From an uncultured Verrucomicrobiota bacterium (lineage in GTDB: Bacteria; Verrucomicrobiota; Verrucomicrobiae; Opitutales; Opitutaceae), in NCBI GenBank assembly GCA_946481225.1, contig CAMLNJ010000020.1, positions 1 through 14,199 on the forward strand: 14,199 nucleotides of DNA, written 5' to 3'. This document shows positions 6,664 through 13,076 of this stretch, piece after piece. The notes beneath the pieces are model-generated. The model saw only the letters and a program-made list of their open reading frames with translations. It had not been told where the DNA came from and searched no databases. Numbering within the stretch: position 1 is the first letter of the stretch; each line of letters starts with the position of its first letter. Position numbers and translations under genes: made by a program.

Positions 6664-8226
6664 TCACGCCGCGAGGTGGTGGTTGACCGAGTCGAGGAGC
6701 GCCTCCCAGGAGGCCTCGATGATGTTGTCGCTCACGCCGACCGTGCCCCAGACGCGATTGCCGAAGCCGCTCTCGATGAGCACGCGGGTGCGGGCGTTGG
6801 CGCCGTTGCGGCCGTCGAGGATGCGGACCTTGTAGTCGCGCAGCTCGATGTCGCGAATCTGTGGATACGCCGGCTCGAGGGCGAGGCGCAGGGCCTTGTC
6901 GAGCGCGCCGACGGGACCGGTGCATTCCGCGACGGTGTGGCGGGGCTCGCCGTTGACGGAAAGTTTCACGGTCGCCTCGGCGACGAGCCGGCCGTCCGGG
7001 CCTCGCTCGACGATCACGCGGTAGCTCTCGATCTCGAAGAAGCTCCGCGCCTTGCCGAGCGTGCGGGCGATGAGGAGGGCGAGGGAGGCGTCGGCGGCCT
7101 CGAATTCGTAGCCGCGGAACTCGAGGTCCTTGAGCTGCTCGATGAGCGACTTCATCTCGGGAGCCTTTTCGTCGAGCTCGAAGCCGAGCTCCTTGGCCTT
7201 CATCGCGACGGAGCTGCGGCCGGCCATGTCGGAGACGAGCACCCGGGTGCGGTTGCCGACCAGGCCGGGATCGATGTGCTCGTAGGACGATTTCACCTTT
7301 TGCGCGGCGTTGGCGTGGAGGCCGCCCTTGTGCGCGAAGGCGCTGAGGCCGACGTAAGGCGCCTTGGTGTCGGGCTTGATGTTGGCGAGCTCGTCGAAGG
7401 TGAGGGAGAGCTCGCGCAACCCGGCGAGGTTTTCCGCGCAGCGGGCGGTCTTGCCCATCTTGAGGAACAGGCTGGGCAGGATGGTAAAGAGGTTGGCGTT
7501 GCCGGTGCGCTCGCCGTAGCCGTTGGCCGTGCCCTGCACGAGGGTGGCCCCGGCGGCGACGCCCGCGAGGGAGAGCGCGACGCCCAGGCCCGAATCGTTG
7601 TGCGTGTGGACGCCGACCTTGTCGGAGCCGAACTCGGCCACGACCTTGGCGACGATGGCCTTGAAGTCGTCGACAAGCGTGCCGCCGTTGGTGTCGCAAA
7701 GGGTGAGGTTGCTCGCGCCGCCCTTGATCGCGGCGCGAAGGGTCTGGAGCGCGTAGTCGGGGTCGGACTTGTAGCCGTCGAAAAAGTGCTCGGCGTCGTA
7801 GACGACCTCGCGGCCCTGAGAGGTGACGTAGCGGATGGAATCCTCGATCATGGCGAGGTTTTCCTCGAGCGTGGTGCGCAGGATCTCGGTGACGTGGAGA
7901 GTCCAGGTCTTGCCGACGAGGGTGAGCACGGGCGTCTCGGCCTCGAGCAGGGTCTTCAGTTGCGCGTCCTCCTCGGCGCGGATGCCGGCGCGGCGGGTGG
8001 AGCCGAACGCGGCGAGCCTGGCGTGCTTGAGCTTCAGCTTTTTCGCCTCGGCGAAGAAGGTGATGTCGCGGGGATTGGAACCGGGGAAGCCGCCCTCGAT
8101 ATAGTCGACCCCAAAGGCGTCGAGCTTCTGCGCGATCAGGAGTTTGTCCGTCACGGAGAAGCTGATCCCCTCGCCCTGCGTGCCATCGCGGAGGGTGGTG
8201 TCGTAGATCTTAACGGCGGTGCTCAT
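6664..8226 (-). CDS. cimA: (R)-citramalate synthase
   Basis: It condenses pyruvate with acetyl-CoA to (R)-citramalate, the first step of the threonine-independent route to 2-oxobutyrate and isoleucine. The 520-residue length suits the long CimA type (TIGR00977-like). The HMGL-like barrel carries YDTTLRDGTQGEGISFS (8-24; Arg13 and Asp14 in the catalytic/metal site), HTHND (207-211; metal-ligand histidines) and NGYGERTGNAN (235-245). AFAHKGGLHANAAQK (296-310) is the conserved linker. The C-terminal LeuA-type regulatory domain is at about 390-515, ending in VLIESG...VWGTVGVSDNIIEASWEALLDS. That ending is characteristic of CimA rather than of 2-isopropylmalate or homocitrate synthase. The start is ATG at 8226, two residues ahead of the conserved start; no Shine-Dalgarno is evident. 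It is preceded by a leader peptide and terminator that fit isoleucine attenuation. Confidence 0.93.
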   Translation of the reverse strand: MSTAVKIYDTTLRDGTQGEGISFSVTDKLLIAQKLDAFGVDYIEGGFPGSNPRDITFFAEAKKLKLKHARLAAFGSTRRAGIRAEEDAQLKTLLEAETPVLTLVGKTWTLHVTEILRTTLEENLAMIEDSIRYVTSQGREVVYDAEHFFDGYKSDPDYALQTLRAAIKGGASNLTLCDTNGGTLVDDFKAIVAKVVAEFGSDKVGVHTHNDSGLGVALSLAGVAAGATLVQGTANGYGERTGNANLFTILPSLFLKMGKTARCAENLAGLRELSLTFDELANIKPDTKAPYVGLSAFAHKGGLHANAAQKVKSSYEHIDPGLVGNRTRVLVSDMAGRSSVAMKAKELGFELDEKAPEMKSLIEQLKDLEFRGYEFEAADASLALLIARTLGKARSFFEIESYRVIVERGPDGRLVAEATVKLSVNGEPRHTVAECTGPVGALDKALRLALEPAYPQIRDIELRDYKVRILDGRNGANARTRVLIESGFGNRVWGTVGVSDNIIEASWEALLDSVNHHLAA

Positions 8227-8302: not shown

Positions 8303-8335
8303 AAAACGAAAAACCCCGGGCATTTCGGCCCGGGG
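8303..8335 (-). terminator. intrinsic terminator in the cimA leader (attenuator)
   Basis: On the minus strand a perfect 8-bp stem CCCCGGGC/GCCCGGGG (8335-8328 and 8321-8314), with a six-base loop CGAAAT, is followed at once by TTTTTCGTTTT (8313-8303). The complementary strand has no T-run after the stem, so it acts only leftward. No minus-strand gene other than the short leader ends before it, and it lies 77 nt upstream of cimA. It would therefore stop transcription into cimA rather than end a long gene. Confidence 0.88.
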
Positions 8336-8388
8336 TCTTCGGAAAATCGGAGGCGTGCGGTTCGCGTTTACGCCAAGATCCCCGGCCC
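8327..8388 (-). promoter_or_regulatory. predicted antiterminator pairing of the cimA attenuator
   Basis: In the leader transcript GGGCCGGGGATCTT (8388-8375, within the last leader codons) can pair with AAGACCCCGGGCC (8339-8327), which contains the 5' arm of the terminator. The pairing is AAGA/TCTT, one bulged A, CCCC/GGGG, GG/CC, one mismatch, CC/GG: about 12 pairs. It excludes the terminator hairpin. A ribosome stalled on the Ile codons (8409-8401) would leave this segment free and favour read-through. A ribosome that reaches the stop codon (8370-8368) would cover it and let the terminator form. Pairing was worked out by eye; no folding energies were computed. Confidence 0.65.
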
Positions 8389-8445
8389 GGGGGGGCAGGT
8401 AATAATAATGGCGGCGATAATGAGGACGCGCTTCACGGAGACCAT
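8368..8445 (-). CDS. isoleucine-rich leader peptide of cimA
   Basis: A 25-codon ORF, ATG 8445 to TAA 8368, begins MVSVKRVLIIAAIII and ends with a TCPPGPGILA segment. Six residues are Ile (9, 10, 13, 14, 15, 23), with three Val and two Leu. Positions 13-15 are three consecutive ATT codons, and four of the six Ile codons are ATT, although neighbouring genes such as pyrB use ATC almost exclusively. The composition and the Pro/Gly end recall the E. coli ilvG leader peptide. The stop codon is 33 nt from the terminator stem. There is no strong Shine-Dalgarno, as for most genes here; GTG at V4 is an alternative start. The peptide is presumably not functional itself: translation speed through it would report charged tRNA-Ile. 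Confidence 0.82.
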   Translation of the reverse strand: MVSVKRVLIIAAIIITCPPGPGILA

Positions 8446-8531
8446 GGCTAGCGAGGGTCCCGTCGCGCTGTCGAGGGTGTTTTCAGTCCGGACAGTCCGC
8501 GTCGGCCTTAGGATGTCTTTCCTTCGGGAGG

Positions 8532-10079: not shown

Positions 10080-10107
10080 CACGGTGGGCAAAACGCAGCC
10101 CACCGTG
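10080..10107 (+). promoter_or_regulatory. 10-bp hairpin covering both candidate pyrR start codons
   Basis: cacggtgggc (10080-10089) and gcccaccgtg (10098-10107) are perfect reverse complements around an 8-nt loop, aaaacgca. The two plausible pyrR start codons, GTG 10084 and GTG 10105, lie one in each arm, so the structure would hide them in the mRNA. It may be a translational control element or simply another intergenic palindrome that the gene start has grown into. It does not resemble the known PyrR-binding loop of Bacillus. Confidence 0.5.
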
Positions 10108-10671
10108 CCCGCCCAAGCCCAAGCCACCCCCCTCGTTTCCCAGGCCGAGATCGGCCGCGCCCTGGATCGCCTCGCCGCCGAGATCGCCGCGCGTTACCCG
10201 GCCGACCCGGCCCGCCGCCTCGTCGTGCTCGGCATCGCGAACGGCGGCGTCCACGTCGTCACGCGCCTCCAGCTGCTCCTGCGCAAGCACTACCCGGAAA
10301 ACGCGCGCCCACGCACCGGCATCATCGACATCTCCTTCCACCGCGACGACATCGGTCGCAACCCGATCCCGAAGGAGTTCACGCCGACGGTCATTCCCAT
10401 CGACGTCACCGGAGCCACCGTCGTCCTCGTCGACGACGTCCTCCAATCCGGCCGCACCGTGAAGGCCGCCCTCGACGAGCTCTTCGACCACGGCCGCCCC
10501 GCCAAGGTCGAGCTCGCCGTCCTCGTCGACCGCGGCGGCCGCACCCTGCCCGTCGCCGCCGACTACACCGGCCTCGTCGTGGACGCCGCCCCCGAGGAAA
10601 AAGTCACCGTCGTCCTCCACGCCACCGACCCGCGCCACGACGCCGTCACCGTCGCCCGCCCCGCCAAATAA
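10084..10671 (+). CDS. pyrR: bifunctional pyr operon regulator / uracil phosphoribosyltransferase
   Basis: PyrR has the phosphoribosyltransferase fold. In Firmicutes it senses UMP and binds pyr mRNA leaders, and it often has weak uracil phosphoribosyltransferase activity. The PRPP-binding loop VVLVDDVLQSGRT is at 113-125 with the acidic pair Asp117-Asp118. GIANGGVHVV (50-59), the basic segment ISFHRDDIG (83-91) and VDRGGRTLPVAADYTG (148-163) match PyrR rather than other phosphoribosyltransferases. The conserved part begins about residue 16. The start is uncertain: GTG 10084 gives 195 residues, GTG 10105 gives 188 and avoids translating most of the hairpin. It is first of pyrR-pyrB-pyrC, 70 nt before pyrB. 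No attenuator terminator is visible before it, so any regulation may be translational or by another route. Confidence 0.88.
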   Translation: MGKTQPTVPAQAQATPLVSQAEIGRALDRLAAEIAARYPADPARRLVVLGIANGGVHVVTRLQLLLRKHYPENARPRTGIIDISFHRDDIGRNPIPKEFTPTVIPIDVTGATVVLVDDVLQSGRTVKAALDELFDHGRPAKVELAVLVDRGGRTLPVAADYTGLVVDAAPEEKVTVVLHATDPRHDAVTVARPAK

Positions 10672-10703
10672 CAGAACGCGCCCCCTCCGCACCCCGCCCG
10701 CGC

Positions 10704-10731
10704 CATTCGTCATTAGGCATTAGTCATTCGT
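10704..10731 (+). repeat. four tandem heptamers upstream of pyrB
   Basis: Four consecutive 7-bp units, cattcgt, cattagg, cattagt, cattcgt, make a perfect 28-bp phase in the 70-bp pyrR-pyrB gap, ending 10 nt before the pyrB start. They are AT-rich compared with the surroundings. Similar short heptamer strings occur between genes in Verrucomicrobia as I remember them; function unknown. Confidence 0.65.
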
Positions 10732-10741
10732 CCTTTTCCCA

Positions 10742-11686
10742 ATGTCCTGGAACCGCCGCCACCTCCTCACGCTCGAGGAACTCTCCCTCGCCGAGATCGA
10801 GCAGATCCACACCGTCGCCACCGCCTTCAAGAAGGTGCTCAAGCGCTCGGTCAAAAAAATCCCCGCCCTGCGCGGCAAGACCATCGTCAACCTCTTCCTC
10901 GAGCCCAGCACGCGCACCCGCATGGCCTTCGACATGGCCGCCAAGCGCCTCAGCGCCGACGTCATCTCCTTCGACGCCGCCAGCTCCTCCACCACCAAAG
11001 GCGAGACCCTCCGCGACACCGCCGAAAACATCGCCGCCCTCGGCGCCGACATGATCGTCATCCGGCACTCCTGCGCCGGCTCCCCCCTCTACCTCTCCAA
11101 GATCCTCGGCATCCCCGTCATCAACGCCGGCGACGGCTCGCACGAGCACCCCACCCAGGGCCTCCTCGACACCTTCACCATGCGCGAGCGCCTCGGCGAC
11201 CTGAAGGGCCGCCGCGTCGTCATCCTCGGGGACATCCTCTTCAGCCGCGTCGCCCGCTCCAACATCCACGCCTTGGTCAAATTCGGCGCCAAGGTCACCC
11301 TCTGCGGCCCCTCCACCCTCGTCCCGCCCAGCCTCGAAAGCCTCGGCGTCGCCGTCTCGCACGACCTCCGCTCCGCCCTCGCCGACGCCGAGGTTGTCAT
11401 GCTTCTTCGGATACAGCACGAGCGCCAGACGCAGACCATGTTCCCCAGCCTCGGCGAATACACCTCGATGTTCGGCCTCAACCAGACCCGCGCCAGCTGG
11501 CTGCACCCGGAGGCGATCATCATGCACCCCGGCCCGATCAACCGCGGCGTCGAGATCGACAGCTCCCTCGCCGACGGCGAGCGCAGCGTGATCCTCGACC
11601 AGGTCACCAACGGCATCGCCGTCCGCATGGCCTGCCTCTACCTCTGCGCCGGCGGCGCACCCGGCTCCGTCGTCCCCGTCGACTGA
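10742..11686 (+). CDS. pyrB: aspartate carbamoyltransferase catalytic subunit
   Basis: It makes N-carbamoyl-L-aspartate from carbamoyl phosphate and aspartate, the second step of de novo pyrimidine synthesis, in the cytoplasm. The 314 residues fit the usual catalytic-chain length. The carbamoyl-phosphate loop PSTRTR is at 55-60. [10 protein letters not shown] (81-90) supplies Lys86 from the neighbouring subunit, and HPTQ is at 136-139. Aspartate-binding LLRIQHER is at 221-228 and MHPGPINRG at 261-269. No pyrI regulatory subunit is present; regulation would come from PyrR or from pairing with dihydroorotase, as in bacteria with a PyrB-PyrC complex. The start is ATG 10742 directly after the heptamer repeats; no Shine-Dalgarno. 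The Ile codons are nearly all ATC. Confidence 0.95.
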
Positions 11687-11709
11687 TCCTCCCGCCCGCT
11701 CTCATCCAC

Positions 11710-11768
11710 GCGCGCCTCCGGGCGCGCCGCACCCGACCTTGGACTTTCGACCTTCCGACCTTCGACCG
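11710..11768 (+). repeat. hairpin plus degenerate GACCTTC heptamers in the pyrB-pyrC gap
   Basis: The 94-bp gap holds a 7-bp hairpin, gcgcgcc/tccg/ggcgcgc (11710-11727), without a U-tract. A run of related heptamers follows: gaccttg, gactttc, gaccttc, then gaccttc after one extra base, and gaccgat (11735-11770 region). The motif differs from the CATTMGK heptamers before pyrB, so two distinct short tandem repeats occupy consecutive gaps of one operon. In the pyrC frame the run would encode an N-terminal extension, which I regard as untranslated. Confidence 0.6.
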
Positions 11769-11780
11769 ATCTCCCGCCCG

Positions 11781-13076
11781 ATGCCTCTCCTCCACATCCA
11801 AAACGCCCGCGTCATCGACCCCGCCTCCAAGCGCGACGCCTCCGGCGAACTCTTCATCCGCGACGGCGTCTTCGTCGCCCGCCCCTCCGCCGCCGACCTC
11901 AAGAAGGCCCGAAAAGTCGACGCCTCCGGCCTCGTCGCCGCCCCCGGCCTCGTCGACATCCACGTCCACCTCCGCGAGCCCGGCCAGACCCACAAGGAGA
12001 CCATCGAGACCGGCACGCGCGCCGCCGCCGCCGGCGGTTTCACCAGCGTCGTCTGCATGCCCAACACCGCGCCCGTCGCGGACAACGCCGGCACCATCCA
12101 GCTCATCAAAGACTCCGCCGCCCGCTCCGCCTGCGTCCACGTCTACCCCACCGGCTGCATCACCGTGGGCATGAAGGGCCAGAGCCTAGCCCCCATCGGC
12201 TCCCTCAAGCGCGCCGGCGTCATCGCCATCACCGACGACGGCGACTGCGTCCAAAGCAACGAGCTCATGCGCCGCGCCTGCGAATACGCGAAGATGTTCG
12301 ACCTCCCGATCATGGACCACTGCCAGGACCACTCCATGACCGTCGGCGCCGTCATGAACGAAGGGAAGATGTCCGTGAAACTCGGCCTCAAGGGCTGGCC
12401 CAACGCCGCCGAGGACCTCATCGTCGCGCGCAACTGCATCCTCTCCGAATACACCGGCGCGCACATCCACATGCAGCACGTCTCGTCCCGCGCCTCGGTC
12501 GACATCCTCCGTCGCGCCAAGGCCCGCGGCGTCAAGGTCACCGGCGAAGGCACCCCGCACCACATCGCCCTCACCGACGACTGCGTCGCCACTTACGACA
12601 CGCACTTCAAGATGAACCCGCCCCTCCGCACCGAGGAGGACCGCCTCGCCGTCATCGCGGGGCTGAAGGACGGCACGCTCGACATCCTCGCCACCGACCA
12701 CGCCCCGCACACGCCGGACGAAAAGGACCGCGAATTCGACCTCGCGCCCAACGGCATCCTCGGCCTCGAGACCGCCCTCGCCATCACGCTCGAAATCCTC
12801 GTCCGGAAAAACAAATTCAAGCTCGCGACCGTCGTCGACCTCTGGACCCGCAAACCCGCCGAGCTCCTCGGCCTCCCCGCCGGCACCCTCGCCGAAGGCG
12901 CGCCCGCCGACCTCGTGCTTTTCGACCCCGACGCCGAGTGGATCTACGACGCAAAAAAAGGCTTCTCCAAGTCCGCCAACTCCCCTTGGAGCGGCCAAAA
13001 ACTCCGCGGCCAGGTAAAGGCCACCTACGTCTCCGGCCGCCTCGTCTACGACGGCAAAAAAATCGTCGCGAAATAG
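11781..13076 (+). CDS. pyrC: dihydroorotase, class I
   Basis: It cyclises carbamoyl-aspartate to dihydroorotate, the third pyrimidine step. The 431-residue amidohydrolase has metal ligands in [10 protein letters not shown] (His61, His63), Asp153 in TDDG, His180 and His233 in MQHVSS. The catalytic Asp306 is in [15 protein letters not shown] (277-283) binds substrate, and all key residues are present. This makes it an active enzyme rather than the degenerate PyrX-type partner seen with some aspartate carbamoyltransferases. The numbering closely follows the type I enzyme of Aquifex as I recall it, a form that associates with PyrB. The start ATG 11781 precedes the conserved [12 protein letters not shown]; the frame is open 14 codons further, but only through repeats. 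No terminator with a U-tract follows. Confidence 0.95.

Follow-up and report, generated by a model that had tools for sequence, protein, structure and literature searches.

The minus strand of the window (the whole analysed stretch of 14,199 nucleotides) carries a short isoleucine-rich ORF and then an intrinsic terminator between a divergent ORF and the citramalate synthase gene cimA. This element is very probably a ribosome-mediated leader-peptide transcription attenuator that senses charged tRNA-Ile. Citramalate synthase belongs to isoleucine synthesis, and the ORF with Ile codons, the intrinsic terminator 5′ of the gene, and the gene from the same pathway are all present. The remaining feature of such attenuators, an antiterminator that is exposed by the ribosome and excludes the terminator, is indicated by complementarity, spacing, and covariation.

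In the proposed mechanism, transcription would begin just 5′ of the leader ORF. Under isoleucine shortage, the ribosome would stall on the ATT codons at 8409–8401 with its front edge just short of the CCCGGG at 8391–8386. Segment 2 could then pair with segment 3 (8335–8327), no terminator would form, and cimA would be transcribed. When isoleucine is plentiful, the ribosome would reach the stop codon and cover segment 2, the hairpin at 8335–8314 would form, and transcription would stop at the T-run. Promoter, stalling, termination, and isoleucine response are all predicted from the DNA sequence. The coordinates of the features are listed in Table 1.

Table 1 Features of the putative isoleucine attenuator and its downstream gene in the window
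Feature	Positions	Strand	Remarks
cimA, citramalate synthase, 520 aa, putatively controlled gene	6664..8226	-	TIGR00977, 703 bits vs. cut-off 450
T-run of the terminator	8309..8313	-	Window sequence
Segment 4, GCCCGGGG, 3′ arm of the terminator	8314..8321	-	
Segment 3, CCCCGGGCC, 5′ arm of the terminator and predicted partner of segment 2	8327..8335	-	
Segment 2, putative antiterminator strand CCCGGGCCGGGG inside the ORF	8380..8391	-	Complementary to the 5′ arm of the terminator
Leader ORF, GTG start	8368..8436	-	VKRVLIIAAIIITCPPGPGILA and stop, 22 codons plus stop; start and frame kept in close relatives
Leader ORF, ATG start of the earlier note	8368..8445	-	MVSVKRVLIIAAIIITCPPGPGILA and stop, 25 codons plus stop; less likely start
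Putative control codons ATT ATT ATT	8401..8409	-	Ile at -13/-12/-11 from the stop in 23/30/25 of 35 cimA leaders
-35-like box TCGACA	8469..8474	-	38 nt 5′ of GTG 8436; putative promoter element

An earlier note on this DNA had described the parts in this order upstream of cimA, and ORF, complementary segment, terminator, and a gene matching TIGR00977 were indeed read as stated. The terminator consists of CCCCGGGC (8335–8328), the loop CGAAAT (8327–8322), GCCCGGGG (8321–8314), and T at 8313–8309 on the minus strand, confirming the reported perfect 8-bp GC stem followed by TTTTT. It ends well 5′ of the cimA start (8309 vs. 8226). As the upstream neighbor ORF (with a weak transporter-family match, below cut-off) is divergent, the window contains no other co-directional gene that this terminator could end. 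The pairing segment had been placed at 8388–8375. The longest stretch that pairs with the 5′ arm of the terminator does lie inside this interval (8388–8380 with 8335–8327, 8 of 9 pairs), but the conserved antiterminator strand is centered on CCCGGG at 8391–8386. The plain minus-strand fold of 8303–8445, which had been suggested as a check, was only modestly stable (z = −1.75; 9 of 200 shuffles folded as well), and folding energy alone would thus have missed the element. A fixed filter (ORF of 15–35 codons, at least five Ile codons of which two adjacent, followed by a GC hairpin and T-run) matched a single place on both strands of the window, the leader locus, and no place in 1500 dinucleotide shuffles of 8500–8227. 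Rfam models of T-boxes, known amino-acid leaders, and riboswitches had no match in the window at gathering score, and an Rfam search of L087, L230, L231, L281, and L220 also gave no match.

The leader ORF ends with TAA at 8370–8368 and contains six Ile codons with first bases at 8421 (ATT), 8418 (ATC), 8409, 8406, and 8403 (each ATT), and 8379 (ATC). The run of three ATT had been described as lying in DNA that otherwise prefers ATC; accordingly, cimA and eight other ORFs of the window use 177 ATC, 9 ATT, and 4 ATA. The 25-codon ORF with six Ile codons of the earlier note exists, but the leader probably starts at GTG 8436 and comprises 22 codons: the GTG is conserved among the closest relatives and ATG 8445 is not, and the latter would overlap the predicted −10 region. 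A T[C/G]GACA box occurs 36–54 nt 5′ of the chosen leader start in all 35 aligned cimA leaders. With the usual spacer after this box, the transcript would begin within a few bases of GTG 8436. The transcript may thus have next to no 5′ untranslated region ahead of the translated leader and may not include ATG 8445. No Shine-Dalgarno-like sequence was seen by eye 5′ of the window leader.

The distribution of the leader was assessed in 141 whole genomes related to the genome of the closest contig, many of which are incomplete. A cimA gene was found at E 1e-100 or better in 112 of them, and the upstream DNA was examined for 110 of these, five further genomes (G002–G006), and the window. In 36 of the 76 nearer loci (cimA ~65–95% identical to that of the window, which is included), the alignment of upstream regions proposed by the earlier note revealed an Ile-rich ORF, a GC hairpin, and a T-run together with a segment complementary to the terminator arm; L097 is a weak case. 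The leader also precedes the truncated cimA genes of G050 and G014; with these two included, it was found at cimA in 35 of the 141 relatives, in G003 and G004, and in the window. Loci that the earlier note had set against its reading do occur in part. The leader is absent from 40 of the 76 nearer cimA genes, 11 of which are from genomes with a leader at ilvA instead (see below), and this leader form was found in none of the 40 distant upstream regions (50–65% identity), where the script detected a T-run hairpin once, without an Ile leader. A terminator kept without Ile codons was seen as a partial case in L097 (MNSRRFAIAITLAVLHRGQEITA and stop), which retains three non-adjacent Ile codons. The ORF ends are altered in L119 and L135. 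L145 and L151 were scored as leaders by the script and removed by eye, and L081 and L097, which fell below the score cut, were added by eye. L097 was kept out of alignment A1 and of all counts of 35 and 50 leaders because its terminator is unlike the script’s pattern; the later-found leaders L227, L228, L300, L302, and L342 are also outside the 50. L131 and L132 were rejected as Ile leaders, as their terminators follow an rpmB-like gene (by eye). Among the leaderless loci, those such as L129, L130, and L136 have cimA immediately 3′ of an apparent threonine synthase gene end (by eye), and others have a TTGCCA box near the cimA start.

Isoleucine accounts for 183 of the 770 codons in the 35 leaders, compared to 31 Leu and 24 Val codons. 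The Ile codons were 130 ATT, 52 ATC, and 1 ATA (71% ATT) in the leaders versus 27 ATT, 373 ATC, and 2 ATA (7% ATT) in cimA at 19 loci with a leader (odds ratio 34, p = 1.6e-58, uncorrected for kinship), and the preference for ATT is clade-wide. Other codons in the same leader part have normal third bases (G or C in 269 of 317, vs. 7972 of 9276 in cimA). Hence, the bias belongs to the Ile codons and not to the stretch. One tRNA normally reads both ATT and ATC, so that an explanation through separately charged isoacceptors would not apply to them. It is through such isoacceptors that leader codon bias is explained in the accessible text of PMC1183508, and in this respect the leaders differ from the Salmonella typhimurium leu attenuator with its CUA codons, with which they share a strong synonymous bias in the control region. 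Slow wobble reading could be the cause, but this is a guess. Occurring in genomes that otherwise avoid ATT, the bias offers a natural test of synonymous tuning in which one tRNA probably reads both codons.

The selected choice of ATT over ATC points to codon reading and thereby disfavors the alternative that the leader senses something else through its nascent peptide, in the manner of the TnaC and ErmC leaders, with the Ile residues serving arrest. Partial conservation after the Ile run (often PG, and a final Ala) would fit an arrest peptide. However, conservation falls on the residues encoded by segment 2 (CCC GGG), and elsewhere the peptide varies widely (PPGPGILA, QPGQDDAA, APGRGEMA, and FSGRRRVAV before ilvA), making this alternative very improbable in our view. 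We regard it as equally unlikely that the leader answers to branched-chain amino acids in general, like the enterobacterial ilv leaders. Although the window leader read from GTG 8436 has two Val and two Leu codons (not counting the start GTG), the totals given above are dominated by Ile, and Leu and Val codons are not concentrated near segment 2.

The distance between the Ile codons and the pairing strand was analyzed in 50 leaders (35 at cimA and 15 at ilvA). The last Ile codon is separated from the GGG codon by four codons in 39 leaders, five in 10, and three in one (counts after correction by eye of the script's assignment for L285), whereas the distance from GGG to the stop codon ranges from 9 to 30 nt. 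As the latter varies more, the constrained quantity is the distance between Ile codon and pairing strand. The ribosome was assumed to reach 12 nt beyond the first base of the codon in its A site. Under this assumption, a ribosome with the last Ile codon in the A site leaves the GGG strand free, and one at the stop codon covers it. When folded from the edge of an Ile-stalled ribosome, at least two of the three GGG bases paired with the terminator arm in all 50 leaders (two of three in the window), and with the ribosome at the stop codon the terminator formed in all 50. Real leaders paired 8.9 bases of the terminator arm on average compared to 3.3 in the shuffled controls, of which 13% reached the value of their own locus.

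The ORF strand is exactly CCCGGG in 27 of the 35 cimA leaders. The strands of the cimA leaders vary little because CCCGGG is palindromic and is found again in both arms of the terminator. The consensus fold of these 35 leaders alone, in which the hairpin hardly varies, thus contained almost no covariation; it showed only the terminator and no conserved 1:2 protector hairpin. For lack of this hairpin, we did not place the element in the four-segment subtype of the trp and his attenuators. Covariation appeared once the ilvA leaders were added. Three of these have strands of the CCCGGG type. In seven, the ORF strand is CTCAGGGC, CTCAGGGT, or ATCAGGGC and the terminator contains GCCCTGAGC and GCTCAGGGC; in the remaining five, the ORF strand is TTCAGGGC, TCCGGGGC, TTCGGGGC, CTTGGGGC, or CTCGGGGC and the terminator arms fit, mostly if G-U pairs are allowed. 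Over the 50 rows, five of nine terminator pairs had changes on both sides (8 of 500 shuffles reached five pairs), amounting to 38 cells versus 10.7 in shuffles (none of 500 reached 38). The three variable antiterminator pairs, with the register set per locus by the CCC directly before the first non-C, were kept in 145 of 150 cells (2000 shuffles: mean 123, maximum 136; L285 entered with a wrong GGG). A column-wise 2:3 count over the 50 rows was not used, since cimA-type strands pair one base out of register relative to ilvA-type strands. In the 15 ilvA rows, 91.7% of the cells were paired (0 of 500 shuffles) and the covariation was 0.219 versus 0.158 in shuffles (2 of 500), with two pairs changed on both sides, a weak result that 349 of 500 shuffles reached. 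As related sequences are not independent, these shuffle figures are not probabilities. Terminator and antiterminator covary, and the column-wise test on the ilvA rows is the weaker one.

The mutually exclusive 2:3 and 3:4 pairings also speak against the idea that control takes another route, such as Rho or the initiation of cimA translation, and that the hairpin merely stabilizes the RNA. Some distant Ile-rich mini-ORFs before cimA have no hairpin with T-run, so that other forms may exist. In the window clade, however, a T-run follows the hairpin in every aligned leader, and the window terminator ends well before the cimA start. We thus see little chance that this route, rather than transcription attenuation, accounts for the element.

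The covariance model R1, for which cimA leaders were the sole input, also gave high scores at places other than cimA, just 5′ of a threonine dehydratase-like gene (ilvA). The G054 protein had its best matches to threonine ammonia-lyase models, below the curated cut-offs; the other ilvA genes were recognized by eye and by an ilvA search. The ilvA leader was found in 10 of the 141 relatives (G023, G024, G026, G041, G048, G054, G061, G068, G071, and G084) and in G002, and the cimA upstream regions of these eleven genomes contain no such leader. A class-wide scan of 384 genomes yielded seven more ilvA leaders (G190, G275, G314, G378, G468, G248, and G252; 18 in all), and all seven genomes possess cimA without this leader form. 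The ilvA leaders of G061 and G024 score as high with R1 (97 bits) as many genuine cimA leaders do, suggesting that the module is of common descent. In G041, which has other ilvA-like genes, the ilvA match behind the leader (L233) contains TGA and TAG, and this copy is possibly defective or the product of mis-assembly. Elsewhere in these genomes there are terminators that fit the model in its 3′ part only, and several model matches with weak E-values were chance terminators on inspection. That the whole element is an ordinary terminator beside a chance mini-ORF can nevertheless be practically dismissed, because no shuffle of the window locus passed the filter, frame, codon choice, spacing, and complementarity are kept in 50 leaders, and a model of cimA leaders finds a second isoleucine gene.

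Matches at E 1e-6 or better occurred exactly once in each of 50 genomes, and among the 141 relatives, none of the 35 genomes with a cimA leader and the 10 with an ilvA leader was found to have both. These figures apply to the leader form captured by the two models used; leaders of other forms would escape them, and some such forms were seen. The weak-E-value matches of R1 and of the ilvA search were inspected in part. Of the 35 relatives with a cimA leader, 13 possess a total of 24 ilvA-like genes (E 1e-25 or better), and upstream of these 24 no Ile leader with terminator was present (L354 is an Ile-containing ORF without terminator). On a 38-row cimA tree (L086 and L090 left out, G002 labeled as none, some forks open), the cimA-leader label requires five changes, which none of 500 shuffles matched or undercut, and the ilvA-leader label six, which 16 of 500 did. 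Several leader switches are therefore likely. Among the 12 genomes closest by full-length cimA (87–95% identity), 11 lack an ilvA match at E 1e-25 and G008 has a 46% match. The citramalate route is thus probably the main entry to the pathway there, which fits control at cimA. Tentatively, and as a proposal that we rate somewhat short of probable, the Ile leader could be a movable module whose target has changed repeatedly between the entry enzymes encoded by cimA and ilvA, with at most one of them attenuated per genome; the module would be tuned by a rare synonymous codon and read from an almost leaderless transcript. Placed on cimA or, in close relatives, on ilvA, the device would provide a natural series of a regulator following the flux when the entry step changes.

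The control codons of the enterobacterial ilvGMEDA and ilvBN attenuators are Ile, Val, and Leu. The element described here resembles these systems in combining end-product codons in a leader ORF, a terminator, an alternative pairing, and the ribosome as presumed sensor, and differs from them in that Ile alone is used, the gene is cimA or ilvA, no protector hairpin is conserved, and segment 2 lies inside the ORF. Both enterobacterial systems are named in the accessible text of PMC1183508. According to the accessible text of PMC1262725, actinobacterial trp attenuators share a conserved triple of complementary strands forming antiterminator and terminator, which the CCCGGG triple found here resembles, albeit in another phylum and for another amino acid. 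The same text reports actinobacterial ilvB leaders with mixed Ile/Val/Leu codons that overlap the terminator, describes their mode of action as unclear, and mentions neither ilvA nor citramalate. A literature search, the reach of which excluded most subscription papers including comparative attenuator surveys, and which addressed cimA attenuation, ilvA leader peptides, and attenuators in Verrucomicrobia or Opitutus, found no description of this element or of a cimA attenuator. The mechanism is classical, and the target gene, the bacterial group, and the alternation between cimA and ilvA appear to be new. Leader-peptide attenuation would thereby be extended to citramalate synthase and to this group.

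Several other features were encountered. The window itself contains, at 10084–13076, a pyrR homologue and pyrB (both above curated cut-offs) and then a dihydroorotase-like ORF recognized by eye; this pyrimidine cluster may carry its own RNA-level control. Ile-rich mini-ORFs with ATT runs but without a T-run hairpin precede distant cimA genes in L188, L189, L190, and L178, with ATTATTAGCTGAGGGG at the ORF end common to L188 and L189, and may represent a further type of isoleucine control. A conserved mini-ORF, MA(S/T)QPAIF.IRII.GLLCA and stop, lies ~165–170 nt 5′ of cimA in L318, L319, and L320 without a clear terminator; the respective genomes carry the Ile leader at ilvA. On other contigs, 6 of 80 cimA loci passed an Ile mini-ORF filter compared to 0.9% of shuffles. 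Ile-rich mini-ORFs before cimA were seen there in L064 (a Desulfobacteria MAG), L042 (a BRC1 MAG), L018, and L036, and L064 (MQPQAITSTVGIIAVVVGIIISLLPAGGLVMA and stop, then a hairpin with T-run) looks like an independent attenuator. A leader-like ORF with terminator precedes a protein of ~100 aa, which by eye resembles an ACT-domain regulatory subunit, in L237 (G060), L239 (G092), and L309 (G090); an NCBIfam search of two of these three proteins gave no match. Finally, the model matches L236 (G060) and L238 (G093) were rejected as Ile leaders, as they have five His codons before a hisG-like gene (by eye). Their leader MVLNHHHHHSS and stop, followed by a terminator, is probably a histidine attenuator in the same bacterial group.
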